The notes beneath the pieces are model-generated. The model saw only the letters and a program-made list of their open reading frames with translations. It was not told where the DNA came from and did no database searches. The translations under genes and the position numbers were made by a program. A stretch of 20,798 bases of DNA from a virus. Of the stretch, positions 1 through 15,082 are shown piece after piece. The stretch spans positions 1 to 20,798 of the IMG/VR virus record IMGVR_UViG_3300047444_000288; one strand, 5' to 3'. Positions within the stretch are counted from its first letter, which is position 1. Every line of letters begins with the position of its first letter.

Positions 1-88
1 CACCTTGCTGGCCCGGTACGTTGAATGAACCAACATTCTGTGCATTGACAGCCGAAGGGTTATAGCCAGGAGGGGGTGTAAAGAGCAT
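1..88 (-). CDS. Unidentified phage protein, N-terminal part only
   Basis: An ATG at 88 opens a frame that runs off the left edge of the window with 29 codons visible. The protein begins MLFTPPPGYNPSAVNA and is rich in Pro, Asn and Gly, with no recognisable domain in the part present. It starts 2 nt after the TGA of the GNAT-like gene, the same tight packing seen between its neighbours, so it is probably the next gene of the late operon. Function unknown. The position after the nozzle would suit another virion or internal protein, but that is inference. Confidence 0.55.
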   Translation of the reverse strand, partial: MLFTPPPGYNPSAVNAQNVGSFNVPGQQG

Positions 89-90
89 GA

Positions 91-549
91 TCAACCCTGT
101 TTCTGTTCCGGCTTGGGTGTCTCCAAGCGGGCAAGCTTCTCAATTTGTTCCCTGAACAACACAAGGCGCACACCAGTATTACGTGAACAATCACGGGGGC
201 CGTAGAAACAACGCTGCACCCCTTCAAGCCGCCAACCAAAACGCTGCAATGCCCTGATTAAACGTCTATGCTTCTTTGACGTTATCACAGTACCACGGGA
301 TACATTAAACTGAGATAGTGCCACACGGGCGATCATCCTAACCATGCCCGGTGATAGTGTCCACGGTCCATAATAACTCAATTCTATGTTTGATCCATTA
401 TAATTTTGCAGAAGGATACCACCTACCAGTGTTCCATCCTTTTCAACTATGCCCAATGCCCGGTTAACCGGTATTGGAAACAGCTTGAAGGTAGAATAGA
501 CCCAAGCAGCAACCCTGGCATCATCATCAATAACAAGGCCGTAGCTCAT
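91..549 (-). CDS. GNAT-fold acetyltransferase-like phage protein
   Basis: This 152-aa protein resembles the GNAT-fold proteins often found among late genes of podoviruses. An N-terminal strand region (NRALGIVEKDGTLVGGILL, about residues 29-47) corresponds to the GNAT beta hairpin. A middle segment ends in a run of helices, and RALQRFGWRLEGV (about residues 99-111) matches the family's conserved 'GFxxEG' turn. The classic acetyl-CoA pyrophosphate loop (Q/RxxGxG/A) is not evident, so catalytic activity is uncertain. The C-terminal tail is charged (KLARLETPKPEQKQG). Its ATG directly follows the TAA of the preceding gene (TAAATG), which implies coupled translation. What it might acetylate is unknown. 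The fold assignment is by recognition, not by search. Confidence 0.65.
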   Translation of the reverse strand: MSYGLVIDDDARVAAWVYSTFKLFPIPVNRALGIVEKDGTLVGGILLQNYNGSNIELSYYGPWTLSPGMVRMIARVALSQFNVSRGTVITSKKHRRLIRALQRFGWRLEGVQRCFYGPRDCSRNTGVRLVLFREQIEKLARLETPKPEQKQG

Positions 550-819
550 TTACTGCCCCAACTGGTCGAGTCCTGCATTTGGCGGGACGCCGGTCATTAG
601 GGCTTGCATGGCATTGGGGTCCATCCCCTGCATTGCTTGTTGCCCCATCAAGTTAGCATTTTGACCCATTCCCATCATACCCTGCTGGTTTCCAAGTGAG
701 CCAGCTAACATAGTAGGGTCCACCTGACCTATGGGCGGTGGTCCCATCTCAGGGGCTTGCCCCTGCCGTGCCTGCAACGCCTGCATCATCATTTGTACTT
801 GTGGGTCTTGGGGGTCCAT
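550..819 (-). CDS. Small Met/Gln-rich hypothetical protein
   Basis: An 89-aa protein of extreme composition, dominated by Met, Gln, Gly, Pro and Asn, with near-repeats such as QGMMGMGQNANLMGQQAMQGM. No domain is recognisable and it is probably largely disordered. A GGAAGG-type ribosome site lies about 9 nt before the ATG at 819. It sits between another low-complexity protein and the GNAT-like gene, all head-to-tail behind the nozzle gene. Candidate roles are an internal, ejected or assembly protein, but nothing in the sequence proves one. It is called a gene because it exactly fills the gap between its neighbours, abuts the next ATG, and has a ribosome site. Confidence 0.6.
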   Translation of the reverse strand: MDPQDPQVQMMMQALQARQGQAPEMGPPPIGQVDPTMLAGSLGNQQGMMGMGQNANLMGQQAMQGMDPNAMQALMTGVPPNAGLDQLGQ

Positions 820-834
820 TAGAGTTATCCTTCC

Positions 835-1254
835 TTAGAATGGCCGTGTAAGTGGCATGCCAGCTAGTGGGTGTGGTGGGCCGGGTTGACGTAACGCTTG
901 CAGCATTCTTAATTGTGCCTCAGCAACTTCTGGCCCAGGTTGGGCATGTAACTGTGTCAATGCTGATACCGGTGCCCGCTGTATTGTCTGTGCCGGTTGG
1001 AATTGAAGCAGTGGCCTATGCTCTGGTAATTGCATTGGTGTCAACTTCTTGGCAGTTATTGGAAGTTCACCAGAAGCAGTTACTGCGATGTGAGGCATTG
1101 TTATTTCTGGCGTGGCTTCTTCAGCAGGTGGTGTGGCAGGCTTGGCCAACGCCTGAATTACTTGTAATTGCTCTGGCGTAAAAATGGGCTGCTGCGCTTG
1201 TGGAACTGGCACTGGTGCCGGTGTCGGAGGAGGGGCTGCTTGATTATCAGCCAT
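835..1254 (-). CDS. Pro/Ala/Gln-rich hypothetical protein
   Basis: A 139-aa protein with a long disordered-looking N-terminus (ADNQAAPPPTPAPVPVPQ), a short helix-prone piece (FTPEQLQVIQALAK) and a second one near the end (VAEAQLRMLQALRQ). No known domain was recognised. The ATG at 1254 is preferred over the TTG one codon upstream, because it shares one base with the nozzle stop (TGATG), a standard coupling arrangement. Together with the next, Met/Gln-rich gene it forms a pair of low-complexity proteins just behind the nozzle. In podoviruses such positions can hold internal virion proteins, but that is inference only. Confidence 0.6.
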   Translation of the reverse strand: MADNQAAPPPTPAPVPVPQAQQPIFTPEQLQVIQALAKPATPPAEEATPEITMPHIAVTASGELPITAKKLTPMQLPEHRPLLQFQPAQTIQRAPVSALTQLHAQPGPEVAEAQLRMLQALRQPGPPHPLAGMPLTRPF

Positions 1255-2921
1255 CAAACGAAACCTCCCATTTCTAAAATGACGTTGAAGGCGTTTACCT
1301 GTAAGGTCAACGGGACGCTTGCAACTTGGCCTATGTCAAATTCAGCCGTATCAAAAGTGCCCACATCAAATTCACCAATGTTGGTCAACGCACCACTAGT
1401 GGCAATATTGACACTCAAGTGAACGGCCAGGGCGTGTCCTAATGCCTCAGTACTGAGCCACGGATTGTTTATCAGTGAACCAGCAGGCCACAATGAAACG
1501 TCCCAGATACCAACATCCCATAAAGCACCACCAACAAAGATACTTACCGGTGCCGTTTGCGAGGCAATAATGAAGTCTTCGTCAACACTTATTGTTGGAG
1601 TTATATTACCGCTGCTGACCATGAGTGGTTGCACCATGGTCATGCGTTTTAAGCGGCCAGGATCATCAAAATAGTTAAAGGCACACTGCATATCGGCAGG
1701 GATTGTTTTGTTCAAATCAAGGCTGCCTTTGTACCCTTGATTGACAGACCCGGTATTGTCTCCAAAATACAGGTTGTCATTGTAGATTTCAAAACAGTTG
1801 GCATTCCATCCGGTAAACTGACACCACGCACCCGTAAGGGTGTTCATTACAAATTGAACCTGCTGAGTGTTCTCACTGAGTGGCACATTCAAGATGGCCA
1901 ACTGTTGGGACGGGTAAGTCAAAAACTGCCAACCAAAATTCTTGTTGTACATGGACCCAGCTTGGGCCATGGCGTTTTGAATACGAGCCGTAAGGGCAAC
2001 TGAACGGTCGGCGCTTGGGTCAAACGGTAGTGCCGTACTGATAGGGATGATCCCCTGCTGAGTAATCAACCCAAGATCTGAGCCAACCCGCGTTATGCAA
2101 CGCCGTGAAATAGGTGGCGCTAAATCAAAGGTACCAACCAACCCCCAGGCAGACGCGTTGGTAGGGTCAGTACCAGCATAGATAGATACCTGTCCTTGTG
2201 AAGATAGAAAAACAGTGTAGTCCTGTGGGCCGCTGCCGCCGTCAATGGTCCAATCACCTATAGCTACAAGGTAGCCGCCTTTGTTCCAACTAGCACCAAG
2301 GTCCAGCGTGCCAGCAATAGCCCCTGAAGTGGCATCCACCGGCATGTAGGCAGAGACAGTGGAACCATTAGCTGAACCATCCGTAAGTACATACCATAAT
2401 CGGCGCTTCTGTGCCGATATGTTGATAATAGCAGTTGTACTCAGGCCGTTGGGCAATCCTGTTATAGATGGTGCTGTCCAAGTTGTTCCATCAAACATTC
2501 TAAGTGTATCAATGCCATTGCAACATTGGATTACCGTGGCATTGAGTGATGGCGTGAAGTTTGTGTACTGCCATCTGGATGATGCTAAGCCAGTAACAAC
2601 TGGTGTGGCCGTACCAATAGTTGAAACATCATAAATCTTGCCACCACTTGCGGCAAACATCGTTTGCCCGCCTTCAGCCCGTCTTACCATCAATGTTTCA
2701 ACTGGGACAACACCACTGGTAGTAGCCCAATTGATATATCCATCTCTTAATTCTACCCAGCCTGGGCGCGGTACCCAATTGGTCAGGATGGGTGCCCGCT
2801 TTGGGTCCATCGACGCCAGGGGTGAGATGGCATCCCATCCCTCAGTGGGTGCTGGAACCACCTTGGTTATCGTATCCGGCGCGGGATATGGAGCCTTTGC
2901 TATGGACTGTATCTTACGCAT
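1254..2921 (-). CDS. Tail nozzle / packaged-DNA stabilisation protein, P22 gp10-like
   Basis: A 555-aa protein that resembles the podovirus tail-nozzle family (P22 gp10, T7 gp12-like), the multi-bladed beta protein that closes the tail after packaging. Visible family traits are an N-terminal part with NWVPRPGWVELRDGY (about residues 48-62), successive beta-blade segments such as RMFDGTTW and MFAASGGKIYDVS, and the C-terminal WDVGIWDVSLW followed by FDVGTFDTAEFDIG. The length fits the family. A ribosome site (TAGGAA, 7 nt spacing) before the ATG at 2921 lies in the last codons of the HNH gene upstream. Its first 15 codons are a recoded copy of a stub at 3545-3501, so the current start appears to have been supplied by the HNH insertion. 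The upstream adaptor gene (7139-8098) is the expected neck partner. Confidence 0.75.
   Translation of the reverse strand: MRKIQSIAKAPYPAPDTITKVVPAPTEGWDAISPLASMDPKRAPILTNWVPRPGWVELRDGYINWATTSGVVPVETLMVRRAEGGQTMFAASGGKIYDVSTIGTATPVVTGLASSRWQYTNFTPSLNATVIQCCNGIDTLRMFDGTTWTAPSITGLPNGLSTTAIINISAQKRRLWYVLTDGSANGSTVSAYMPVDATSGAIAGTLDLGASWNKGGYLVAIGDWTIDGGSGPQDYTVFLSSQGQVSIYAGTDPTNASAWGLVGTFDLAPPISRRCITRVGSDLGLITQQGIIPISTALPFDPSADRSVALTARIQNAMAQAGSMYNKNFGWQFLTYPSQQLAILNVPLSENTQQVQFVMNTLTGAWCQFTGWNANCFEIYNDNLYFGDNTGSVNQGYKGSLDLNKTIPADMQCAFNYFDDPGRLKRMTMVQPLMVSSGNITPTISVDEDFIIASQTAPVSIFVGGALWDVGIWDVSLWPAGSLINNPWLSTEALGHALAVHLSVNIATSGALTNIGEFDVGTFDTAEFDIGQVASVPLTLQVNAFNVILEMGGFV
2877..2921 (-). repeat. 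Recoded copy B of the nozzle gene start
   Basis: These are the first 15 codons of the functional nozzle gene. Compared with 3501-3545 they encode 14 identical residues (MRKIQS-I/L-AKAPYPAP). Only three codons are identical in DNA (1, 6 and 14), eleven differ synonymously and one changes Leu to Ile. After codon 15 the two copies lose similarity. The pattern indicates either a start copied from a diverged relative or selection to keep the protein while altering the DNA site. Confidence 0.85.
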
Positions 2922-2923
2922 TC

Positions 2924-3436
2924 TTATTTCCTAGCAAATTCCCCAAAATATTTTTGCTCAGCACACTTACGCGCAGCAACTGCGGCCTCAAATGATTTGT
3001 ATATCCCAAGATATACCTCTTTGTAATTAACCATTATTCTTGCTGAGTACCCATATTTGCTTTTTCTGACACCAGTAGCTCCAGAAGTGTTGCTTTTCTT
3101 TAGACCAAGGTTCTTACCGTTTTGCGGGTGTGTTGCCTCACGCAAATTATCAAATTTGTTATTCCACCCATCACCATCAATATGATCTATTTCTACCTCA
3201 GGCCATTTACCAGTTACCCACAACCAAATTATTCTATGTGCCAAGTAGCGTCTATAATTTATGCTCACACTCACACGTCTGTATTTCTTAATTTTAGTTA
3301 CATGCTTGCACCCAGCAATATCACCAGGGTGCTTCCTATAACGCTCGACCTTCCATATCAAGTCACCAGTTTTCTCATTGTAGTCAAATAAATGTCTAAC
3401 TTCCTTAGAAGTTAAGTCACAAGTTCTGTCCAACAT
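2924..3436 (-). CDS. HNH homing endonuclease with C-terminal AP2 domain
   Basis: A 170-aa free-standing endonuclease of a type common in phages. The HNH core spans about residues 64-100: AHRIIWLWVTGKWP, then EIDHIDGDGWNNKFDNLR, which carries the D-H and N/N residues of the beta-beta-alpha-metal site. The C-terminal AP2-type DNA-binding domain spans about residues 118-168 (SGATGVRKSKYGYSAR, VYLGIYKSFEAAVAAR). Such enzymes nick or cut an unoccupied allele and spread by repair. The ATG at 3436 is chosen because no in-frame ATG, GTG or TTG lies between it and the upstream TAG; a GGGG ribosome site is 6 nt away. The gene ends 2 nt before the nozzle ATG and lies between a truncated and a complete copy of the nozzle start. 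Confidence 0.9.
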   Translation of the reverse strand: MLDRTCDLTSKEVRHLFDYNEKTGDLIWKVERYRKHPGDIAGCKHVTKIKKYRRVSVSINYRRYLAHRIIWLWVTGKWPEVEIDHIDGDGWNNKFDNLREATHPQNGKNLGLKKSNTSGATGVRKSKYGYSARIMVNYKEVYLGIYKSFEAAVAARKCAEQKYFGEFARK

Positions 3437-3482
3437 TTTATACCCCTGTTCACCAGGCCAAGGGTTAGTGTTACCAAACTTC

Positions 3483-3545
3483 TTACCTCCTGTCTATAGC
3501 AGGCGCTGGGTAAGGCGCTTTAGCTAGGGATTGAATTTTTCTCAT
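3483..3545 (-). pseudogene. Truncated original start of the nozzle gene (copy A)
   Basis: An ATG at 3545 overlaps the TGA of the 207-aa tail gene as ATGA, the coupling used elsewhere in this operon. It opens a 20-codon frame MRKIQSLAKAPYPAPAIDRR ending in TAA. The first 15 residues match the nozzle protein's start except for one Leu/Ile change, and similarity stops there. This is best read as the native nozzle start, now severed from the rest of the gene by the HNH insertion. The last sense codons contain a perfect AGGAGG 49 nt before the HNH ATG, too far to serve it directly. The stub may still be translated by coupling. Confidence 0.75.
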
Positions 3546-4165
3546 ATGGTTATTGGCGGGCGTGGGGCATTGTTCATATCTTTGTCGCGATAGTAATAGT
3601 AGATACCACCTTTGCTATCAGTGTACCAGCCATTGATTATCCACTGTCCGGTTCCTGGTGGGGGTGGTGGGATGTTAAAAGCAGTGCAGGAATCACTAGC
3701 GTTACATGGTTCAAATATAAGGGCTTTTAGATTTGGGCTAACAACAATTGCGGATTCTATATCTACTGCATTGGCTTTTTCAGTAATACCAACTACACTA
3801 TCTGATATCCAAACTTCTTTACCAATTTGGGTTGTAAATAATCGACTTGGATCATTTAACCAATTCTCTAAACCAATTTGTGTGACCAGTAACTTACTGG
3901 GGTCTTGGGTCCAGGCCTCCTTGCCAACCTGAGTGACCCTTACATTACCGTGGGCACTTACCCAGTTCTCATTACCTATCTGGGTTACTTGAAGCGGTGG
4001 GTAAGAAGCTGTGGCAGTATCGGTAGCATTAGCCGTCTCTTGAATGTCTCCATACGGCCCAGTGCCTAACCAAGTCTCATTTCCTATCTGGGTAACACCT
4101 AGAGGAAAATGAGGATAACTAGTGACCCATACTTCTTTCCCTATTTGAGTGACTAAAGAGGACAT
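3542..4165 (-). CDS. Tail-surface protein with VTQIGxExW repeats
   Basis: A 207-aa protein with six copies of a 9-residue motif V-T-Q-[IV]-G-x-E-x-W, beginning at residues 5, 24, 60, 77, 94 and 111. The last four are spaced exactly 17 residues apart. A second motif, E-x-[AC]-[ND]-A-x-D with A four residues further on, occurs at residues 43, 129 and 152, and also opens the 193-aa protein encoded at 5220-5801. Similar short repeats occur in phage tail or fibre-associated proteins and suggest a repeating beta structure. The C-terminus has a separate aromatic module (WIINGWYTDSKGGIYYYYRD). The start is 3 nt after the upstream stop and no clear ribosome site is seen, so translation is probably coupled. 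Exact role unknown; a minor tail or appendage protein is the best guess. Confidence 0.7.
   Translation of the reverse strand: MSSLVTQIGKEVWVTSYPHFPLGVTQIGNETWLGTGPYGDIQETANATDTATASYPPLQVTQIGNENWVSAHGNVRVTQVGKEAWTQDPSKLLVTQIGLENWLNDPSRLFTTQIGKEVWISDSVVGITEKANAVDIESAIVVSPNLKALIFEPCNASDSCTAFNIPPPPPGTGQWIINGWYTDSKGGIYYYYRDKDMNNAPRPPITI
3809..4153 (-). repeat. Six coding repeats of the VTQIGxExW motif
   Basis: Six in-frame motif copies (residues 5-119 of the 207-aa protein). The first two intervals are 19 and 36 residues and the remaining three are 17. The DNA of the copies is related but not identical (for example CAAATTGG and CAGATAGG variants), so this is an old protein repeat rather than a recent DNA duplication. 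Confidence 0.8.
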
Positions 4166-4168
4166 AGA

Positions 4169-5212
4169 TCATAATACGTCATTTGGCCCAATTTGCAGAG
4201 CATTAACCCCAGGAATTGTCCAGGCAATACTGGTGTTTGGATCAACAGTGTTGACCATCTGTATCCAAGTGTAGTTACTGGCCATAGCCGTCGTTGGGGA
4301 TGAAAGCACAGTGCTAGAAGATTTTATATTGAAACAAATACTATGTGGCCCGGTGTCATCCATCCTGCTATACATCTTCGTTTGCACAGCAATGATGTTG
4401 AATGGAACCACGGTCAGGGTTTGGCAACCATAGTAATCCTGATTGCCTGGGGTGTTGGTGAAGACGTAAGATGTATCACCATTTGCTATAAGCTCATTGA
4501 CCTGACTGAAATTGGTTCCGGCAGATTTTGGGGTCCATGTAATTGTTTGATCACTATTTGGCATCAACTGCAGTGAACGCACATCACCCTGCCACGTATT
4601 GGGTGAAACCCCTTGATCATTAAACAGATAAAAATCATCAAAGAAAACACCATTAGCTCCAGTCAATGATGTGAAATTAAAAATATTGACAAAATTATTT
4701 GTTGATCCGTTTCTTGTATTCAATCCTGTTGCAGTCCAATTATTTGTTGGGTTTCCGTCAACTCTCATTTCAACACTGCCCACAGTATTATCAATAACAA
4801 TCTTAAATTGCAGATGATGCCAAACAGTGTTATTTAAGAAAATTTGAGGAGAGGTTGCTAAAGCTGCCCCGTTAATGGCCCCAGCAGTAACAACAACAGT
4901 TCCATTAAAAAGAATTGCTATTGCAAGTTGATTGTTTGCCCCATCAAGAAGCTGAAATCCAGCCATTGGAGAAAGGCTGCCCGGTACAATAACTGCATTC
5001 GGTTTTGCAGCCATATTGGCATAAATAGTTGTGCTGTTTGTAAAGGATGTAGTTTTAGCAGTTGAACCATTGCTAGGTACAATAGATTGCCCTACACCAA
5101 AACGGCTAGTGCCACCTGGGTTTACACTAGAAACTGTCCACGATAAGCCACCAGCCACCATATCAGAAGCGTTTGCATAAAAATCAAACCCATCGCCAAG
5201 AAGCCATGCCAT
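4169..5212 (-). CDS. Tail protein with concanavalin A-like (LamG-type) lectin domain
   Basis: A 347-aa protein starting MAWLLGDGFDFY, a start typical of phage lectin-like tail proteins. A LamG/ConA-type beta sandwich is suggested at about residues 60-200. WHHLQFKIVID (from residue 131) is followed by the paired strand ending in VDG (about 152), then FFDDFYLFN (about 190-198), the family's usual 'DDFxL' strand. Such domains bind sugars, so a role in host-surface recognition is likely. The ATG at 5212 is preferred over one at 5236, because GAGG overlapping the previous stop (TGAGG) sits 5 nt before it. The earlier start would overlap the upstream gene by 17 nt. The C-terminal 150 residues are beta-rich with no clear family. 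Confidence 0.7.
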   Translation of the reverse strand: MAWLLGDGFDFYANASDMVAGGLSWTVSSVNPGGTSRFGVGQSIVPSNGSTAKTTSFTNSTTIYANMAAKPNAVIVPGSLSPMAGFQLLDGANNQLAIAILFNGTVVVTAGAINGAALATSPQIFLNNTVWHHLQFKIVIDNTVGSVEMRVDGNPTNNWTATGLNTRNGSTNNFVNIFNFTSLTGANGVFFDDFYLFNDQGVSPNTWQGDVRSLQLMPNSDQTITWTPKSAGTNFSQVNELIANGDTSYVFTNTPGNQDYYGCQTLTVVPFNIIAVQTKMYSRMDDTGPHSICFNIKSSSTVLSSPTTAMASNYTWIQMVNTVDPNTSIAWTIPGVNALQIGPNDVL

Positions 5213-5219
5213 GTCAGCC

Positions 5220-5801
5220 TCACAGAGCCGTTGCATATTGGATGTTTAGGGAATTGCCATTGTTGACTGACTGAGCGCCGTTTGTAAAAAGACCGGCTGA
5301 GTAAAGGATACCACCAGTATTATCTATGGTGTTCACTGCACCTGAACCATATACAAGGAAACATCCATTAACAACACCAGTACCTGTGATACCAAATGCA
5401 ACTAAGCTAGATGATTTAGAACCACCGGCAGCAGCCGTCCACGATACGGTAGGGCGGGGTGATGTATAAGTTGGTGCATGAGCATTACCAGCTTCCAACC
5501 AGCCAGCATGGCTACTCATAGTGTCATTAACTGACACGCCAGTAAAAGAAACAGATGAAATTAGGCCCATGTACGGGCCAGTTATCGTGTAAGCAACACC
5601 AGCCAAGTAAGTATCAAGGGCAAGGTTCTTACCTACAACGGTAACTACGTTGTCAGCCTCAGCTACCCAAAGGATTTTTCCATCCTTATCAAGGCAAGTA
5701 ACGGTGTACCGCCCAACAGCGTGACAGGCTTCAACGTATGCCCCCCTGGCGGTAACAAATGCCGCACAAGTGTCAACAGCATCGGCTTTTTCAATTGGCA
5801 T
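5220..5801 (-). CDS. Phage tail-associated protein, conserved family of unknown function
   Basis: A 193-aa protein. The segment from about residue 57 (GKNLALDTYLAG, TGPYMGLISSVS, SSHAGWLEAG, GCFLVYGSGAVNTIDNTGG) matches a family I recognise from many phage tail regions, but no biochemical function is established to my knowledge. The N-terminus carries the motif EKADAVDTCAAF, also present in the 207-aa repeat protein two genes downstream, which ties the two to the same structure. The ATG at 5801 comes 12 nt after the stop of the 58-aa gene; no good ribosome site is visible. The stop is followed directly by the ribosome site and ATG of the lectin-like gene. Confidence 0.7.
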   Translation of the reverse strand: MPIEKADAVDTCAAFVTARGAYVEACHAVGRYTVTCLDKDGKILWVAEADNVVTVVGKNLALDTYLAGVAYTITGPYMGLISSVSFTGVSVNDTMSSHAGWLEAGNAHAPTYTSPRPTVSWTAAAGGSKSSSLVAFGITGTGVVNGCFLVYGSGAVNTIDNTGGILYSAGLFTNGAQSVNNGNSLNIQYATAL

Positions 5802-5813
5802 TTTAATGTGTCA

Positions 5814-5990
5814 TTAAGAGGGAAGTGGGTCTACTCTAGTATTCCTATAAGAATACTGTGGCTGATCATCACGTCTTACACGAACATGATCAATCCATAA
5901 TTCATTTGGTTCTGGAACTGGTGTAGGTAAAGGCAGTGCATCGGGTAATTTAACAGGCTCGTTCTTAGCCTTAGCTTTTTCAGTGGTCAT
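5814..5990 (-). CDS. Small 58-aa proline-rich hypothetical protein
   Basis: An ATG at 5990 shares one base with the TAA of the double-HNH gene (TAATG) and opens a 58-codon frame ending at 5814. The protein begins MTTEKAKAKNEPVKLPD, continues with a proline run (ALPLPTPVPEPNELW) and ends in a basic, Tyr-containing part (VRVRRDDQPQYSYRN). It fills an otherwise empty 190-nt interval exactly, and the coupled start supports it being real. It resembles the small spacer proteins commonly found after head-tail adaptor genes. Function unknown. Confidence 0.6.
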   Translation of the reverse strand: MTTEKAKAKNEPVKLPDALPLPTPVPEPNELWIDHVRVRRDDQPQYSYRNTRVDPLPS

Positions 5991-7087
5991 TAGGTTACCA
6001 GTTCCCCAGCACCGCCTTTATGACGGCCCGGTTTGCTTTCAATAGTTGGAATAGATTCGTCCACATGCTTCCATGTAATGCCTTTAACCGCACAAACTAT
6101 GCAATACGTGGCAACTCCATATTTGTTGGCAAGAAAGCGCCAGCTTGCCCCCTTTTGACGTAACTGCCGCGCTTCACGTACTTTAGCCTCAGTCAACTTT
6201 GATTGTGGCCTATCTTCACCACGGTTTATCCTACCACGTTTGACACAATCATCAGAATTTTGCTTATAGGTACCAATAATCAAGTGCTTAGGATTTACAC
6301 ACAAAGGATTGTCACAAGTGTGCCTTATAACCATCTTTGGTTCAGTTATTGGGCCATTGTGAATGATCCATGAAGCACGTGAGGCCGTCATTGGCCGTGG
6401 GTTAAGTTCCTTTGACTTGAAGACACCATAACCTGTTTTATCCCAAGTCCGCCCAGTCCAATTCCAGCAACCAGTAACTTTATCCTTCTTAAAGCACCCG
6501 TAGAAGCGTTCTCGTGGCGATTGGTATTTCTTCTTTTTATAACCAAGCTGCCTACCTATGCGGGCAATACGCTTCTCAATGGCTCTGCTTATATCCTCCT
6601 CAGTGTGAACACGTGGGCCAAAAGCTTGTGCCCTAGCTTCTTCATACGCCTTAGCCGCAAGTTCTGGCGTAGCATAATCACCAAGGTGATAGCGAATACC
6701 CTGTATTGCTATCCTTGCCCTGAAAAGCTTCCCATGCTTTCTTACACCGAGAAAACCAAGCCTGTTATTCAATCTGACTGTAGTGTTGTGTTGGTTACCA
6801 GAGTCATCATTGAGCCGTAAATTGTCCCACCTGTTGTCAGATCTATCAAGGTTCTTGTGGTCAACAATGGTGTTTGGCCAAGCGTGGGTTACATAAAACC
6901 AAGCAAGCCGGTTCTCAGAATACTCTTTGTCATTGATGGTGATGTACCTATACCCATGGTGTTCATACCCGGCACGGTCACCAACCTTGACCTTTTTGCT
7001 CTTGACTACCTTCCAGGTGAACCAACCAGTTTCCTTATTGTAGTCTAGGCGTTCACACAATTCCTTATGGCTAACATTTTCTTGCAT
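5990..7087 (-). CDS. Double HNH homing endonuclease (HNH-AP2 fused to HNH-HTH)
   Basis: A 365-aa protein that joins two complete homing-endonuclease modules. The first (about 1-160) has an HNH core with AWFYVTHAWP and VDHKNLDRSDNRWDNLR, then an AP2-type domain (GFLGVRKHGKLFRARI, YATPELAAKAYEEAR). The second (about 190-290) is an HNH_3-like domain with GCWNWTGR, IRHTCDNPLCVNPKHL and DDCVKRGR. A C-terminal helix-turn-helix follows (about 297-342: KLTEAKVREARQLRQKG, FLANKYGVATYCIV). Typical phage HNH proteins of either type are about half this length. A clear ribosome site (AGGAG, 6 nt) precedes the ATG at 7087. It sits between the adaptor and a small gene, does not break either, and probably spreads by homing into that junction. 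Confidence 0.9.
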   Translation of the reverse strand: MQENVSHKELCERLDYNKETGWFTWKVVKSKKVKVGDRAGYEHHGYRYITINDKEYSENRLAWFYVTHAWPNTIVDHKNLDRSDNRWDNLRLNDDSGNQHNTTVRLNNRLGFLGVRKHGKLFRARIAIQGIRYHLGDYATPELAAKAYEEARAQAFGPRVHTEEDISRAIEKRIARIGRQLGYKKKKYQSPRERFYGCFKKDKVTGCWNWTGRTWDKTGYGVFKSKELNPRPMTASRASWIIHNGPITEPKMVIRHTCDNPLCVNPKHLIIGTYKQNSDDCVKRGRINRGEDRPQSKLTEAKVREARQLRQKGASWRFLANKYGVATYCIVCAVKGITWKHVDESIPTIESKPGRHKGGAGELVT

Positions 7088-7138
7088 TGCTGACTCCTGT
7101 TAGTTTGCAGGGTCAGCATACACAAAATTAAACTGGGG

Positions 7139-8098
7139 TCAAGCATTGTTCGGGCCCACGGGGCCAGGAAAAAAGCCATCTTGCGTATTCGATGGTGAGA
7201 TGAAGATGGGGTTCACTCTCTTCACCAAGTTCAGCGTCGGCGCACCACCATCACGAGCCACCAATCGGTCCACATAATCAACCCACCGATTCTGCATTGA
7301 CTGATAATTAAAACCCTTCCTCTCCCAAAACATCCACTCAATACCAAGGATGATGGCTTGATCATCAAGCAACACCTGATCGTCATCATTCGTAAAGTAC
7401 TGAGCAAAAGCAGTGTCAGAACCGTTAACCATGACAGCCGCCGTACTGAGGTACTCAAACACAAGCTGCAGGGGTGAGGTAATTTCAGCCGGTTGAGGCC
7501 AGATACGGAACTGACTTGACAATGGCCCCACTTTACGGAAGTGCCTACGCGGGCCAGTAACCACAATACCTGACCGGTGCCACTGATCCATCTGCGGGCT
7601 ATCAGGCCCCAGCAGTTCCCACCGGTTTGTTCTATCCCACATAGTCCGGTTGTTGAACCAATCAAACCCCTCCGGCATGGGGTAAGTATCCCTTGAAAAA
7701 GTAAGTGTCATGCCGGTGGTTGCAGCACCTGTTACTTCCATGGACAAAGTCACTTGATTGAGTGAGTCCACTGAAATAACACGGGCCGCTGTGGGGATAC
7801 CAAAACCACTACACATATAGAAGTTAGCCTCAATACCGGTTGTACTTGGGATGCCGGTTATGACTGGTGAGTTCTGAGTAGTGTTTCCAACAGTGACAAT
7901 GGGCACACTCACAACCAAGTCATACTCAAACTGCATTGCAGTCCATCTGTTCCTGCGCCGCAGTTCGTCCAATACCCTATTGGCCAGATAGTACATCTGT
8001 GTGGTGGTAGCGTCTTGGTTTAGAACCACAGCCGCAGCTTGCGGCAGCCCAAGTTCTGCTTGGGCCGCCTGCACCATCTGAAGGAGGGTAAGGGACAT
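7139..8098 (-). CDS. Head-tail adaptor protein, P22 gp4-like / T7 gp11-like
   Basis: A 319-aa protein of the family that forms the ring between portal and tail nozzle in podoviruses. Recognisable features are the helical N-terminus (TLLQMVQAAQAELGLP, then QMYYLANRVLDELRRRNRW). The middle has FDWFNNRTMWDRTNRWELLG, and near residue 190 a strand pair RHFRKVG ... FRIWPQP. LVFEYLS follows, then an acidic stretch with DDDQVLLDDQAIILGIEWMFW and a C-terminal helix. The order N-terminal helix, 'WDRTNR', 'FEYLS', 'LGxxWxxxxxKG' is the signature I use. An earlier-frame reading at 7231-7665 is only a shadow. The gene starts 18 nt after the 124-aa gene and ends 51 nt before the double HNH gene. Confidence 0.75.
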   Translation of the reverse strand: MSLTLLQMVQAAQAELGLPQAAAVVLNQDATTTQMYYLANRVLDELRRRNRWTAMQFEYDLVVSVPIVTVGNTTQNSPVITGIPSTTGIEANFYMCSGFGIPTAARVISVDSLNQVTLSMEVTGAATTGMTLTFSRDTYPMPEGFDWFNNRTMWDRTNRWELLGPDSPQMDQWHRSGIVVTGPRRHFRKVGPLSSQFRIWPQPAEITSPLQLVFEYLSTAAVMVNGSDTAFAQYFTNDDDQVLLDDQAIILGIEWMFWERKGFNYQSMQNRWVDYVDRLVARDGGAPTLNLVKRVNPIFISPSNTQDGFFPGPVGPNNA

Positions 8099-9331: not shown

Positions 9332-10738
9332 TTATGCAGCCTTCTGTTTTCGTCCCTGCATCTGTGCTCGCAGCAATGAGGCTGCTTCTATCATCATTGG
9401 TTCCCAAGCATTTGGGGCAGGTTGGGTAAACTGCCGTAAGGTGGGGTACCAAGGGCTGTCCTGACGCCTACCCAGCCAACGCCAGCAGCCGCACCAACGG
9501 CTAAGCAACCACGTAGGCTTACCCAAAGCCCCCGCCACATGCACCACAGCGGTATCAACACTGATCACAAGGTCTAGGCACTCAATCAGTGCCGCCGTAT
9601 CATAGAAGTCGTCTAGTTCCTCGGTCCAATCACCAATGGTCATGCCCGTGGGTGGCTTCTCAATCTGATCCCTTGGCATGCCCTTTTGCAGTGATACCCA
9701 ACTCACCCCCGGTATTTTAGCTAGTGGGCCAAACGATGCTAGGGTCGTTGAGCGCATTCTATCCACTGCATCAGCCTGTGGCCGCCCCGGCCTGCTCATA
9801 CCAGCCCAGCAAACGCCAACCAGCATTCCTGGCGGCAGTTTCTTAAGGCGCTCCCGCCACAACCCTACCCGGTAAGGTTCAGCTTTCAAGTATGGGCCAT
9901 TCCAAGGAATAGTGTCAACCGTGGTACCAAAAATACGCGGCAGTGACATTACCGGGATCATATAGTCAATCTCAGCACACGGCACCAGATCACCAAAGGT
10001 CAGCACACGATCAATATTGGCTAACGTCTGCATAAGACGTACTAGCGGCTGCCGCACCTCAATGAAAACAGTACCACCAAACTTTTCCTTGATCATGGAA
10101 GCGTAGCGCATGAAATGCAGTGAGTCCCCATGACCCTGCTCACCGTAGACCAGCAGCGTTTTTCCTTCCAGGCTACTTCCATCCCACTGGGCAATAGGCA
10201 AGCCACGTTCAACCAGTTGATCTGACTTCCATCGCCACTCAAACTCGTCCCAGCCTTCCTTATAGTTCCCCATCTCCAGTTCAGCAAAGGCCCGGTTAAG
10301 GTGGGCATCTATATAATTGGGGTCCAGTTCAGTTGCTCTCCTGTACGAAGGAAGCGCCTCAGCAAGCCTGCCCTTCCATTTCATGGCATTGCCCAAATTC
10401 ATATGGGCGTGTGGCAGCTTTGGATTAAGCTCCAGTGACTTGTGATAGCAAGCTACGGCCTTCTCAGTTTGATCATATTCAGTGTAGGCCGCCCCCAAGT
10501 TCATATGATACTCAGCCGATTTTGGCTCCAGTTCAATTGCCTTCTCAAGGTTCAGCACTGCGTCGAACGGGTGACCCAATTGCATCAAGGCCAGCGCCCT
10601 GTTGTTCCAAGCCAATCCTACCTTGTTATTCTCAGTAAGAATTTGGGTGAACTTTTGAACCGACTCGGCAGGCCTCCCTGTATTCAAAAGATTGACGGCA
10701 TGATCACATTCCTGAATTAACCTCTCACTCAGCAGCAT
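9332..10738 (-). CDS. TPR-repeat glycosyltransferase (GT9/GT41-like fusion)
   Basis: A 468-aa protein with two parts. Residues about 5-170 are tetratricopeptide repeats with the 34-residue W/A-G-Y/F-A-P spacing (AWNNRALALMQLGHPFDAV, YHMNLGAAYTEYDQTEKAV, AHMNLGNAMKWKGRLAEAL). Residues about 190-455 are a GT-B glycosyltransferase fold: YGEQGHGDSLHFMRYA as the first loop, GVCWAGMSRPGRP, the PGVSWVSLQKG strand, then DLVISVDTAVVHVAGALGKP. The last is the heptosyltransferase-like nucleotide-sugar site, followed by WYPTLRQFTQP. Such fusions are frequent in phages and bacteria and are thought to transfer sugars onto proteins or glycans. The ATG at 10738 is preferred over the GTG before it. It overlaps the upstream gene by 14 nt, with GGGGAG about 10 nt upstream. 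Last gene of the enzyme cassette. Confidence 0.85.
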   Translation of the reverse strand: MLLSERLIQECDHAVNLLNTGRPAESVQKFTQILTENNKVGLAWNNRALALMQLGHPFDAVLNLEKAIELEPKSAEYHMNLGAAYTEYDQTEKAVACYHKSLELNPKLPHAHMNLGNAMKWKGRLAEALPSYRRATELDPNYIDAHLNRAFAELEMGNYKEGWDEFEWRWKSDQLVERGLPIAQWDGSSLEGKTLLVYGEQGHGDSLHFMRYASMIKEKFGGTVFIEVRQPLVRLMQTLANIDRVLTFGDLVPCAEIDYMIPVMSLPRIFGTTVDTIPWNGPYLKAEPYRVGLWRERLKKLPPGMLVGVCWAGMSRPGRPQADAVDRMRSTTLASFGPLAKIPGVSWVSLQKGMPRDQIEKPPTGMTIGDWTEELDDFYDTAALIECLDLVISVDTAVVHVAGALGKPTWLLSRWCGCWRWLGRRQDSPWYPTLRQFTQPAPNAWEPMMIEAASLLRAQMQGRKQKAA

Positions 10739-11486
10739 CACACATAGTCTCCCCTGTTGGCATTTCCACTGACCTATGCACCCCTGAAAGTGTTTTTACC
10801 CACAGGGATCTACCTATTATATCAAGTTCATCAAGTGCACCTGATTTCTGAACGTGCGGATCACGACGGGCAATGTTCATGCGCTCAGCCATCTTATCAG
10901 GTGACAGCACGAATGGCCAGTTGAACATGCCGTGAAAACCAAAATGCCTGCTTTCTATTGATGGCCGTGACCGTTCAAAAGAAAAGTCAATGGCAACGCT
11001 TTCAGGTGCCCATTTGAATTGTGGCAGCTTGGTTCGGTAACCCCGGCACAACACCTGATCCTCTGGCATCTTGAGCGGAAACTCTTGCTCATGCTCAGCT
11101 ATGAATTTCAACAAAGCAACTGACCTTAGATTGAACCCACTGTTCCCCACGTTCATATTATCGTTGTACCACCACGGGGCACCCACATAGTCGTATCTTA
11201 AAAATTCATCCCTCCACATTCCTGGGTCAATTATCCAGCTATCATATTGAACAAAGAGAATGTGACTGGTTTTGATATAGTAGGGCATCTTATAAGTTGT
11301 GAAACGTGCCGCTTCATCAACATTCTTAAATTTTACCGGAACAGTTTCCCTTCCTAAATCCTTATCCGTGAATAACTTTACATCCCCAAATTTGGCGTGT
11401 TTCAAACAGTCATCAACTGCCATCAGGGTTAGGTCGTGACAGACTGTGAAGGCACAAACCAAAGTAACGTCAGATAAATTTAACAT
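10725..11486 (-). CDS. DUF5672-family glycosyltransferase-like protein
   Basis: A 253-aa protein matching the DUF5672 family, a GT-A-like fold linked to surface glycan synthesis. Key segments: LVCAFTVCHDLTLMAVDDCL near the start; KMPYYIKTSHILFVQYDSWI (about 66-85), whose Q-x-D replaces a DxD-type site; YDYVGAPWWYNDNMNVGNSGFN (about 98-119), the family's 'DYIGAPW...GNGGFSLR' block; and MPEDQVLC (about 140-147), the acceptor-side acidic pair. Family knowledge supports sugar transfer; the donor and acceptor are unknown. The ATG at 11486 is preferred over a TTG at 11513 because AAAGGG lies 11 nt before it; it overlaps the previous gene by 17 nt. Base composition is AT-rich, like its two upstream neighbours. 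Confidence 0.75.
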   Translation of the reverse strand: MLNLSDVTLVCAFTVCHDLTLMAVDDCLKHAKFGDVKLFTDKDLGRETVPVKFKNVDEAARFTTYKMPYYIKTSHILFVQYDSWIIDPGMWRDEFLRYDYVGAPWWYNDNMNVGNSGFNLRSVALLKFIAEHEQEFPLKMPEDQVLCRGYRTKLPQFKWAPESVAIDFSFERSRPSIESRHFGFHGMFNWPFVLSPDKMAERMNIARRDPHVQKSGALDELDIIGRSLWVKTLSGVHRSVEMPTGETMCDAAE

Positions 11487-12255
11487 ACAACTCTGTACCC
11501 TTTCTTCCTTCAATATCTGCCATCAGTTCTTGGCACACCTGCACACCAGTACGGACTTCATAATCTGAAGTCAAATCCCGGTAGCGAATGGTTGTCATTA
11601 CACCTGCTTTAACATAGGGGTCAATAAACTTGCTATCCCTGAAATCGTCCTTGTAGTCGCCAATCCATACAACAGTTTGAATGTGCAGCATAGCACTCAT
11701 TGTTTTGAACGCACTATCGCTGCCAATGAACATTGAACACTCAGCAACCCTCGATAGGCTTACCGTAACATCAGCATCAACAAATTTTAGATACTCACTT
11801 TCAAATTCACGCCAAGCTGGCACAAGGGCATCAAATTCAGACGCAGTTCCAAAAACCAAGATATTATGCCACTTGTTTGCAGCTATGAGTGAGTTAAGTA
11901 CCGTTATTGGCAGTGCCTTCGACGGGAAGCCAAACCGTTTCTCAACACTGATTGAATAATTAGAACCACCAAGGTGAACACCAAGCACCGGGCGTCCGTT
12001 TGTGAATATGGGGGGTTGCTTAACAAATGGGTTCTTTCTAAAGAACCTTTGACGCGGGCAATTATCAACACTTGTCAGCTTGCCCAATGATACCTCTTCA
12101 ACCGTTAACCCAACAGCAACAAAAAATTCTTGTACATTGTCACAATGAGATGCAACAAGATACCGATTGTTTGGGTGGGTCAGCATGAACGGTAGGCATT
12201 GCAGAAAATCTCCGATACCACCCTTAACAGCAATGGACTTAGGTGTGTTGCTCAT
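11470..12255 (-). CDS. Heptosyltransferase-like glycosyltransferase (GT9-type)
   Basis: A 261-aa protein shorter than typical GT9 heptosyltransferases (about 320-350 aa) but with their landmarks. GGIGDFLQCLPFMLTH (residues 12-27) is the N-terminal acceptor-side glycine loop. VLGVHLGGSNYS (90-101) and NILVFGTASEFDAL (131-144) are strands of the second Rossmann half. SMFIGSDSAFKTMSAML (174-190) matches the 'GxDSgxxHlA' donor-binding helix, with the usual His replaced. The N-terminal half is compact, so an acceptor subdomain may be reduced. The ATG overlaps the radical SAM stop as ATGA, giving firm translational coupling. Donor sugar unknown; the context of methyltransferases and other glycosyltransferases suggests a shared glycan. 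Confidence 0.75.
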   Translation of the reverse strand: MSNTPKSIAVKGGIGDFLQCLPFMLTHPNNRYLVASHCDNVQEFFVAVGLTVEEVSLGKLTSVDNCPRQRFFRKNPFVKQPPIFTNGRPVLGVHLGGSNYSISVEKRFGFPSKALPITVLNSLIAANKWHNILVFGTASEFDALVPAWREFESEYLKFVDADVTVSLSRVAECSMFIGSDSAFKTMSAMLHIQTVVWIGDYKDDFRDSKFIDPYVKAGVMTTIRYRDLTSDYEVRTGVQVCQELMADIEGRKGTELYVKFI

Positions 12256-13277
12256 GCGGCAACCAAGCTTTCAGTGAACTTTTCTAATAGTGCCTCACGG
12301 TAGGGGTCAATGTTGTCCGGTTGGCAATTACTCAACTGCCCACAACTGCCACACACTTGATTTTGCTTCCGCTCACCGCGCAGGTGTTGCATCCGCAACG
12401 TATTCATCAGGTCTGAATTCCAAATTGATTTCATAGATTGTTTACGCACATCACCAATAACAAGTTTGCGGCCCCAATCTATGAAACAAGCGCTAACCAG
12501 TCCGTCAGCGTTGACTGAGTAGCCATAAAAAATGTAGGGGCAGACTGTAGCATCTTTGTTGATTGGCTGGCCGTATAACCCCTTGGTAATTTTCCAGCCA
12601 GTCTTTTCCTCACCATCAAACTCTGGCCAGCATGGTGAAAAGTTTTCAATGAAAATGCGGTCACAATAGTCACCAAAGGTATCCAAAAATTTCTGCCTCT
12701 GATCCTCTGTGAGAATTTCGTTTATTGTCTTAATGACAATCTCACAGCTTCCTTTGTTCGCATGAACCCACTTCACATTTTTAACCATCCGAGTAAAGTC
12801 AAACTTTACCCCTGTAACCTTGTTGCGCTCCTCGTCAACCATACCATCAACTGAAATGTTGATGCGATCAATGCCCGCCTCAAGTACCGGGCCAATACGT
12901 TCAGGGTCTATCAACGAACCATTGGTTGTAGTGTCAACTACCTGAACGGCCTTTGATTGCTTGGCATAGGCAACCATATCAGCTAGGCGCTTATTCAAGA
13001 ATGGCTCTCCATCCTTGTAGAGGCGCAGTACCTTTATAGGCTTGTCAAACTCTACTAGATCATCAACAATCTTCTGGAAAACATCAAATTGCATCAGACC
13101 CTGGAAGCGCCCTGTTTTGGCAATCATGTCACGGTGGCCAGTTGGGCAGAATGTGCATTTGAAATTGCACGCACTGGCCGGGTCAACAAAGATGACATAA
13201 GGCGTAGTTAACGGGATAACCGCTTCAAGGGTGGGACGGTTATCAAGGTTGATACGCGGTTTGAGGGCGGCTTTCAT
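12252..13277 (-). CDS. Radical SAM enzyme with SPASM-like C-terminal domain
   Basis: A 341-aa protein with the radical SAM cluster motif C37-NFK-C41-TF-C44, binding the 4Fe-4S cluster that cleaves S-adenosylmethionine. A 'GGEP'-like SAM contact follows (KDGEPFLN, 88-95), then TTTNGSL (116-122) and INISVDG (139-145), both standard barrel strands. The C-terminal region holds five cysteines (C246, C264, C309, C312, C318) in VCPYIFYGYSVNADG, ACFIDWG and CGSCGQLSNC. This is a SPASM/twitch-type auxiliary cluster site. SPASM enzymes modify peptides, sugars or other small substrates; which one cannot be told here. Between glycosyltransferases and methyltransferases, sugar modification or a virion-protein modification are the main options. 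The domain call is solid. Confidence 0.9.
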   Translation of the reverse strand: MKAALKPRINLDNRPTLEAVIPLTTPYVIFVDPASACNFKCTFCPTGHRDMIAKTGRFQGLMQFDVFQKIVDDLVEFDKPIKVLRLYKDGEPFLNKRLADMVAYAKQSKAVQVVDTTTNGSLIDPERIGPVLEAGIDRINISVDGMVDEERNKVTGVKFDFTRMVKNVKWVHANKGSCEIVIKTINEILTEDQRQKFLDTFGDYCDRIFIENFSPCWPEFDGEEKTGWKITKGLYGQPINKDATVCPYIFYGYSVNADGLVSACFIDWGRKLVIGDVRKQSMKSIWNSDLMNTLRMQHLRGERKQNQVCGSCGQLSNCQPDNIDPYREALLEKFTESLVAA

Positions 13278-13289
13278 TTAGAAGTACAC

Positions 13290-13982
13290 CTACTTTTCCA
13301 TTATATAATAATACTGACCAAGGGTGCTATTGAATGGCTCAATTTTTGATGACACCTGCGCTGAAAATTCATCCGCTGCCCTACGCACTCCAGGGAAACC
13401 TTCATAATCATCACCAAACAGCACACCACCTTCTTTTACCAGGGGCCAGTAATTCTCCAAATCCTGTTTGGTGTCATAGTAATCATGAGAACCATCAATG
13501 TAAACTGCGTCAGCTTTTACACCCCATGTTCTAAGTAAAGCCGCCGCAACGTTCGAAGTAATTGGCATTGGCACAATGATATTCTGCTTGCCACTATGAA
13601 TAACATTGGATAAAAACTGATAGTAAACTTTCGGGTATCCATTCTTACGGTACATATCTGGGAACTGATACATTTCATAGGAACCAAGCCACGTATCAAT
13701 ACACACTATGGCTCCACCCTCAGCAACATAATTAGTCATCTTTATGGCACTAGCCCCCTTCCAACTGCCAACTTCAATAATCAACGACGGCCGTTGATGC
13801 TGATTTACGAAGACATGTTCAAAAATCTGATTACTTATTTCCGGTATGCCATTTGACCAGCTTGTATCAAGTGGGAATTCTGGTTCATACCCAACAAAAG
13901 GATCAACACCACAGAAGGCTTTGCGTAAGTCTACAATAGAAATCTGATTGGGGGCACTGACAGGAGAAACAGAAGAATACAT
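13290..13982 (-). CDS. Class I SAM methyltransferase (Methyltransf_24 type)
   Basis: A 230-aa methyltransferase. LIIEVGSWKGASAIKM (about 67-82) is the SAM-binding motif I. IVCIDTWLGSYEMYQF (about 92-107) carries the acidic ribose-contact residue and a lid. ADAVYIDGSHDYYDTKQDLE (about 157-176) is the Methyltransf_24 'DxxxIDGxHxYxxxxxD' block with metal- and substrate-site residues. GGVLFGDDYEGFPGV (about 185-199) is the following strand and acidic pair. The family methylates sugars or small molecules on oxygen, often in surface-glycan or antibiotic clusters. The ATG at 13982 is preferred over the GTG before it, because it shares a base with the FkbM stop (TGATG). The substrate is inferred to be a sugar from its neighbours. 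Confidence 0.85.
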   Translation of the reverse strand: MYSSVSPVSAPNQISIVDLRKAFCGVDPFVGYEPEFPLDTSWSNGIPEISNQIFEHVFVNQHQRPSLIIEVGSWKGASAIKMTNYVAEGGAIVCIDTWLGSYEMYQFPDMYRKNGYPKVYYQFLSNVIHSGKQNIIVPMPITSNVAAALLRTWGVKADAVYIDGSHDYYDTKQDLENYWPLVKEGGVLFGDDYEGFPGVRRAADEFSAQVSSKIEPFNSTLGQYYYIMEK

Positions 13983-15082
13983 CACTTAACCCTCTCATTC
14001 GGTATGGCATAAAGCACAGCGTTTGAGCCACACCAACAATGCAAGCGTAGCAAAAACTTGTAGTCTTCCAACAAGGTCATCAACCAAAAGGGTGTCTGCC
14101 ATAAACCATCAGCATTGTGACAAACGGCTATTGCGAGAATGGGGCGCTTATCCAGTAAGATACGCTTAGTCCCCTTCAAAGCAGGTAGTTCAGCCCCCTC
14201 AAGATGCATCTTAATAAAGGTAGCCGGTAAGTGGTAGTTATCAAGTGTGTGCGTAGCAATGTAATCATTCCCAGTATTTGAAATCTGTGAAGCAAGCCCA
14301 AGGCCGGAGTGAAACTTCGCCACACCTAACTTTTCATGCAAAGCATAAGGGATGATCTCAATGCGCGTGTTCTGTGGCACCCTTTTACGCAAGACCCGCC
14401 TGTTGTTCAGGTCAGGCTCATAGGCAGCAATCAGATCAAACTTGCCACCTGTGATCTTGATAAATTCTAGCGCTACATCACCGTAGCAGGCACCAGCGTC
14501 AACAAAGATTTCATGCTCATGCAGTACCTTGGTTACTTCTGGTATGAAATATTGCTGAGCCTTGGGCACCAACGGTGCGGTTTCAAATGACCATTCCTGA
14601 CGCAGCCGCCGCCATGCAATAAATTGAAGATGGTGGGCGCGGGAGGTATCATCAGCCCAAGTTGTCAGAACTTTGTTGATCTTCTCCTTGTCATTGTCAG
14701 TCAGATGATCAGCAAACCATCCATTAGCTAATGGATGTAAATGTTTGAAGTTCTCAGTAAAATCATAAAAGGGTAGGATTGTTTTGAAACCACGTCCTAA
14801 CAGTGCTTGCTCAATTGGAACATAGGGGGCCGTCACAACACACACTGCAATGCAACTATCAGGGTCTGCTTCCTCGTCGTACTCAATGGCCTGTGCAGAG
14901 CGGTGCCCTATGAATTTCAGATACCCCTGTGCCATTTCCCCAAGTTTTCCCCTGCCGTAAAGCACCAGGGGCGCGTCAGTTAAGGGTGAAGGGCAGCACG
15001 TATCAGTTGCCAGTTTTTCCAACAAGGCTGACGCCACTGCAGGGCTTGGTGACTCCTTAAATGTTTTAGCTATATGAGGCAC
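13982..15082 (-). CDS. FkbM-family methyltransferase
   Basis: A 366-aa protein. The C-terminal half is a FkbM (Methyltransf_21) domain: IFVDAGACYGDVALEFIK (192-209, SAM motif I), AAYEPDLNN (219-227, acidic ribose contact), IKMHLEGAELPALKG (290-304, the family's 'IKxDxEGxExxxLKG'), and RPILAIAVCHN (313-323). The N-terminal part (about 36-115) has a Rossmann-like start LVLYGRGKLGEMAQGYL, as seen in longer FkbM proteins. FkbM enzymes O-methylate sugars and polyketides. The start is GTG at 15082 because an in-frame TAA lies four codons upstream; no strong ribosome site is visible. It follows a terminator-like hairpin, so expression may depend on read-through. First gene of the enzyme cassette. 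Confidence 0.85.
   Translation of the reverse strand: MPHIAKTFKESPSPAVASALLEKLATDTCCPSPLTDAPLVLYGRGKLGEMAQGYLKFIGHRSAQAIEYDEEADPDSCIAVCVVTAPYVPIEQALLGRGFKTILPFYDFTENFKHLHPLANGWFADHLTDNDKEKINKVLTTWADDTSRAHHLQFIAWRRLRQEWSFETAPLVPKAQQYFIPEVTKVLHEHEIFVDAGACYGDVALEFIKITGGKFDLIAAYEPDLNNRRVLRKRVPQNTRIEIIPYALHEKLGVAKFHSGLGLASQISNTGNDYIATHTLDNYHLPATFIKMHLEGAELPALKGTKRILLDKRPILAIAVCHNADGLWQTPFWLMTLLEDYKFLLRLHCWCGSNAVLYAIPNERVK

Follow-up and report, generated by a model that had tools for sequence, protein, structure and literature searches.

In a Glomus species, the genes atp6, atp9, cox2, and nad3 each possess an inserted C-terminal end, an endonuclease open reading frame, and a displaced native end (PMC3630166). 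Identity between the two ends of Glomus atp6 amounts to 63.5% at the DNA level and 91% at the protein level, and a displaced and replaced gene end was first described in the atp6 gene of Allomyces (PMC3630166). In phages, homing endonucleases cut or nick an allele that lacks them, after which repair copies the endonuclease gene and its flanks, a process known as co-conversion (PMC2988022). HNH genes have also split genes of T4-like phages, namely mobE in nrdA and mobA in gene 60 (PMC2988022). Nuclease genes also occur at boundaries of genetic exchange, where they form HEG-islands (PMC10448857). Here, we describe a phage locus in which an HNH gene lies between two versions of the start of a tail nozzle gene, and a second phage contig that carries the corresponding arrangement at the end of a gene.

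The stretch of DNA analysed, referred to below as the window, is the entire IMG/VR record IMGVR_UViG_3300047444_000288, a single assembled contig of 20,798 bases. On its minus strand, an upstream gene (4165-3542) is followed by a 20-codon stub that we call copy A (3545-3483), by an HNH gene of 170 amino acids (3436-2924), and by a complete nozzle gene of 555 amino acids (2921-1254), whose first 15 codons (2921-2877) constitute copy B. The upstream gene encodes approximately six repeats of a VTQIGxExW motif, and a search of IMG/VR found no relatives of it. A second and longer HNH gene (5990-7087; 365 amino acids, with two HNH-like halves) lies directly behind the adaptor gene. Within the phage structural cluster, the region 9332-15082 contains, by Pfam, TPR/heptosyltransferase-like, DUF5672, radical SAM/SPASM, and FkbM-type and other methyltransferase genes; similar genes are present upstream of the nozzle gene of one relative (L015).

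The nozzle gene matches phrog_5107 (2e-94), and an AlphaFold model of its product (mean pLDDT 83) has its best PDB matches in tail proteins of Pa223, VP1, P22 gp10, SU10, and T7. As judged from this predicted fold, which resembles P22 gp10 and T7 tail structures (T7 gp12), the downstream gene is that of a podophage nozzle, in agreement with the call that had been made from the DNA sequence. In PHROGs, phrog_5107 is labelled 'amidase' and placed in the lysis category; the predicted structure is that of a podophage tail nozzle, and the label looks wrong.

The HNH gene encodes a putative homing-type endonuclease by its profile matches to Pfam HNH_3 (1e-14; 54 bits against a cut-off of 24.8) and to phrog_99 (3e-60). 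Residues D84, H85, N93, N97, and N109 of the putative HNH endonuclease are conserved in an alignment of seven sequences, and a search of the PDB with the protein sequence returned no match. Most nozzle relatives possess no HNH gene at this position, which is the distribution expected of the gene for a free-standing homing endonuclease, absent from otherwise similar loci. The spacer of 46 bases between the stop codon of the stub and the start of the HNH gene (3437-3482, minus strand) matched no RNA family, and no relative was found. A peptide in frame ahead of the HNH start, TGGKKFGNTNPWPGEQGYK, had no meaningful match, and the idea that it is what is left of a former insertion site was dropped.

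Copy A begins with the sequence ATGAGAAAAATTCAATCCCTAGCTAAAGCGCCTTACCCAGCGCCT and encodes the peptide MRKIQSLAKAPYPAPAIDRR followed by a stop codon, and its start codon overlaps the stop codon of the upstream gene as ATGA. Copy B, which begins at 2921 with the sequence MRKIQSIAKAPYPAPDTITK, has no such coupling. Over the first 15 codons (3545-3501 in A and 2921-2877 in B), 14 residues and 32 of 45 bases are identical. Three of the 15 codons are exactly alike (ATG, TCC, and GCG), and 11 of the 14 shared residues are encoded by different, synonymous codons; the homology stops after codon 15, at 3501. The resemblance of the two copies is far above chance. A scored against B gives 75, whereas mismatched pairings of translated flanks across HNH genes, taken as the null, reach 43 at the 95% point and never exceed 72. 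Chance peptides resembling the nozzle start, sought ahead of the nozzle genes of more than 40 relatives over distances of at most 2.5 kb (a few on contigs with little upstream sequence), score no higher than 29. The original prediction, that the nozzle start is present on either side of the HNH gene, once as a coupled but truncated copy and once leading into the complete gene, is borne out by these results.

It had also been proposed that copy B is a synonymously recoded start. A comparison of all nozzle pairs led us to reject any special recoding, as the difference between A and B is ordinary for two alleles. Nozzle genes of 55-70% protein identity use the same codon at identical residues in 37% of cases on average, and pairs at 75-80% identity do so in 44%; the sharing of 2 of 13 codons between A and B has a binomial P of 0.09 against the background of 0.37. 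The nozzles of two independent phages (L032 and L035), which are 73% identical, have all of their first 15 residues in common with 4 of 14 codons alike, and in another pair (L052 and L076) 12 of 15 residues but 1 of 11 codons are shared. Since codon sharing between A and B lies within the range of independent nozzle alleles, divergence by descent is enough to account for it. The two copies look like alleles of one gene from sister lineages, each under protein-level selection, and their divergence could nevertheless protect against cutting.

Several features bear on which of the two starts is the resident one. A four-base ATGA or GTGA overlap with the preceding gene is present in 22 of approximately 42 distinct nozzle relatives, and in copy A but not in copy B. 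The second codon is AGA or AGG in 33 of 41 distinct starts; it is AGA in A and CGT in B. The occurrence of the family-typical overlap and ATG-AGA start at A, and not at B, favours A as the resident start and B as the incoming one. The best reading of copy A is that it once began a different nozzle allele and has been displaced. Over the whole segment, 27 of 41 relatives are nearer in DNA to A and 10 are nearer to B, but the preference largely disappears if codons 1-3 are left out (19 nearer to A and 17 nearer to B).

With the closest relative (L003), identity is 81% for the adaptor and 69% for the nozzle, a gap that hints at a replaced nozzle but lies within the scatter (z = -1.6). A DNA pattern search of IMG/VR found no complete A-like nozzle, no nozzle relative was confirmed in the GTDB species genomes, and no sister that is close to the window and lacks the HNH gene was found. 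Comparison of the nozzle with those of four relatives (L003, L008, L007, and L004) revealed no step in regional identity or codon sharing that would place a right-hand breakpoint. As no close sister is known and the best nozzle identity is 69%, the replacement could extend over most of that gene rather than a short start alone. Of the proposal that an HNH unit entered the 5' end of the gene together with a replacement start, the layout is retained, with a resident-like stub and a complete copy B behind the HNH gene; the imported piece may have been longer than a short start.

A survey for duplicated gene ends covered the flanks of approximately 120 further HNH_3 genes, of which IMG/VR contigs contributed 50 and 18 cultured phages contributed 70. 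The survey was built on HNH_3 searches and compared the flanks of HNH genes only; broad HNH motif patterns matched few contigs. A match in one contig (L116) was discarded as arginine-rich low-complexity sequence. A duplicated gene end across an HNH gene was found for one of these approximately 120 genes, and the footprint is rare. This case, contig L077 (IMGVR_UViG_3300032083_000138, reverse-strand positions 1-1058), carries a terminase-like gene, so named from a weak terminase match. The gene terminates in an attached end, SSHPADSFRYLAVGYRERGSWKSGAIKRGLKGIA followed by a stop codon; next comes an HNH gene that matches HNH_3 and phrog_99, and then a displaced end, SSHPADSFRYLAVGYRERNSWKGGAIKRNIQGIA, likewise followed by a stop codon.

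For L077, HNH-less sisters are available. Up to a sharp breakpoint, L077 is identical to each of the sisters L140 and L146 at 209 of 215 bases (97%). Beyond it, the attached end matches L140 at 79 and L146 at 74 of 121 bases (61-65%), and the displaced end matches both at 90 of 102 bases (88%). A contig of a different sublineage (L150) gives 90 of 121 bases for the attached end and 67 of 102 for the displaced end, and the attached end appears somewhat closer to that sublineage. The comparison with L140 and L146 indicates that L077 has exchanged its native 3' end for a foreign one of synonymously diverged DNA, and that the HNH gene separates this attached end from the displaced native end. The displaced end groups with endonuclease-free sisters and the attached end with another lineage, clearly the grouping by which the fungal mobile open reading frames are defined. 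In contig L148, downstream of 2501-2836, an HNH gene lies directly behind the same terminase-like gene, without a stub. L077 and L148 have the spacer GCGGATAGGGTAGCTCCTGAA in common, which is possibly a conserved part of the mobile unit. In its sequence organization, the window mirrors L077 at the 5' end of a gene. The original idea of interruption combined with replacement is therefore seen in phages in its 3' form, where sisters are known, and is inferred for the 5' form in the window.

We favour homing-associated replacement of a gene end, with the native end left behind as a stub, and assign this reading a probability of roughly 0.7. A free-standing HNH homing-type gene would have entered beside the nozzle gene along with nozzle DNA of another allele. 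Repair of a break near codons 15-20 of the resident nozzle gene would have used as template a donor whose HNH gene stands directly before the nozzle start. That order of genes, with no stub, is present in L018 and, at a contig end, in L017. This donor would have contributed the HNH gene, a working start, and some further length of the nozzle gene, and resident codons 1 to 15-18 would have remained as the stub, with the upstream coupling intact. More generally, a break just inside the gene next to the HNH gene would cause the carrier's version of that part of the gene to be copied in, and non-homologous joining on one side would leave the recipient's own gene end as a stub. The DNA difference between A and B would reflect long-diverged alleles under protein constraint, and it would help to keep the enzyme off its own carrier, since the enzyme presumably attacks the carrier's diverged allele poorly. 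For the window, we infer cleavage by the HNH enzyme, the position of the cut, the layout of the donor, and the direction of the exchange, with A resident and B incoming.

The principal alternative is illegitimate recombination, in which a block comprising the HNH gene and the nozzle gene was joined behind the first resident nozzle codons, the HNH gene being a passenger and its enzyme uninvolved. The layout by itself is silent on the action of the enzyme, phage genomes are mosaic, and a block of this kind could simply be moved, as an HNH gene lies directly before a nozzle start without a stub in two other contigs (L018, 4404-4922; L017, 1-549, at the contig end). Against this, the two ends in L077, which came from a survey confined to the flanks of HNH genes, likewise have an HNH_3/phrog_99 gene precisely between them, and known homing genes make exchanges of this type (PMC3630166, PMC2988022). 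We regard the passenger explanation as rather improbable. The HNH genes of L017 and L018 belong to different HNH subfamilies. Their position directly ahead of the nozzle gene implies that HNH genes have settled at this site more than once, and the nozzle start seems to attract them repeatedly.

The remaining alternatives are much less probable. If the stub were a functional small gene or a leader peptide, it might serve, for example, in translational coupling for the HNH gene, and it is indeed an intact reading frame of 20 codons with an ATGA coupling. Its sequence, however, is that of a nozzle start, and neither the stub nor a similar small open reading frame is present ahead of the nozzle in any of more than 40 relatives, so that we give this explanation very little weight. 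An equally slight probability is given to a chimera assembled from two phage strains of the metagenome. The junction is carried by one contig only, but chimerism is unlikely: the start regions have no exact match longer than 10 bases and no direct repeat within positions 1-8000 exceeds 13 bases, whereas common assembly joins need longer matches. In addition, L077, a second phage, has a layout of this kind, with 9 bases as the longest shared run. That the HNH gene resides in a spliced element, a group I intron or similar with copy A as first exon, is most improbable of all and was rejected: phage introns often house HNH genes, but there is no Rfam match at gathering score around this gene, only 46 bases on one flank and 2 on the other lie outside its reading frame, and copy B already makes the nozzle gene complete.

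If the replacement of a gene end by homing is correct, the window and L077 provide a sequence-level footprint, at both gene ends, of homing in which essential structural genes of one phage receive the alleles of another. Likely HNH cut sites are indicated around codons 15-20 of allele A of the nozzle gene and within approximately 24 bases of the L077 terminase-like gene. Gene trees would be affected as well, since the ends of a single phage gene may differ in history. We tentatively extend these observations to a broader possibility, about which we have more doubt than confidence: that phage HNH homing genes travel with replacement ends, 5' or 3' of essential genes, with synonymous divergence conferring immunity on the carrier and the native stub left in place. 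Such units would be for phages what the mobile open reading frames are for fungal mitochondria, with a 5' form for which no earlier example was found.

A search of the open-access literature, with most subscription journals outside its range, turned up no phage in which a displaced gene-end stub next to a homing gene had been described before. What appears to be new here is the phage 5'-end version of a replacement gene end, together with its 3'-end companion, L077. Among known systems, HEG-islands resemble the window in that HNH genes bracket structural genes (PMC10448857), and the two HNH genes of the window bracket a small gene block in an HEG-island-like manner; HEG-islands concern whole cargo genes, whereas the window concerns duplicated gene ends. 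As in T4 mobA/gene 60 and Aeh1 mobE/nrdA, an endonuclease gene has apparently entered a coding region. Those genes stay split, with T4 bypassing within gene 60, whereas the nozzle gene of the window is whole, having the start of another allele (PMC2988022, PMC5009743). The free-standing enzymes of T4-like phages (SegG, MobE, and others), considered together with marker exclusion, likewise have their genes beside the presumed target, and co-conversion of flanks is established for them; in the passages of PMC2988022 consulted, a displaced gene-end stub is not described for these enzymes. The closest likeness, as the original prediction had suggested, is to the fungal mobile open reading frames, in which an endonuclease gene also lies between two versions of a gene end that are close in protein and diverged in DNA (PMC3630166). 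The fungal examples involve 3' ends, LAGLIDADG or GIY-YIG enzymes, and mitochondria, whereas the window involves a 5' end, an HNH_3 enzyme, and a phage, and L077 supplies the phage version at a 3' end.
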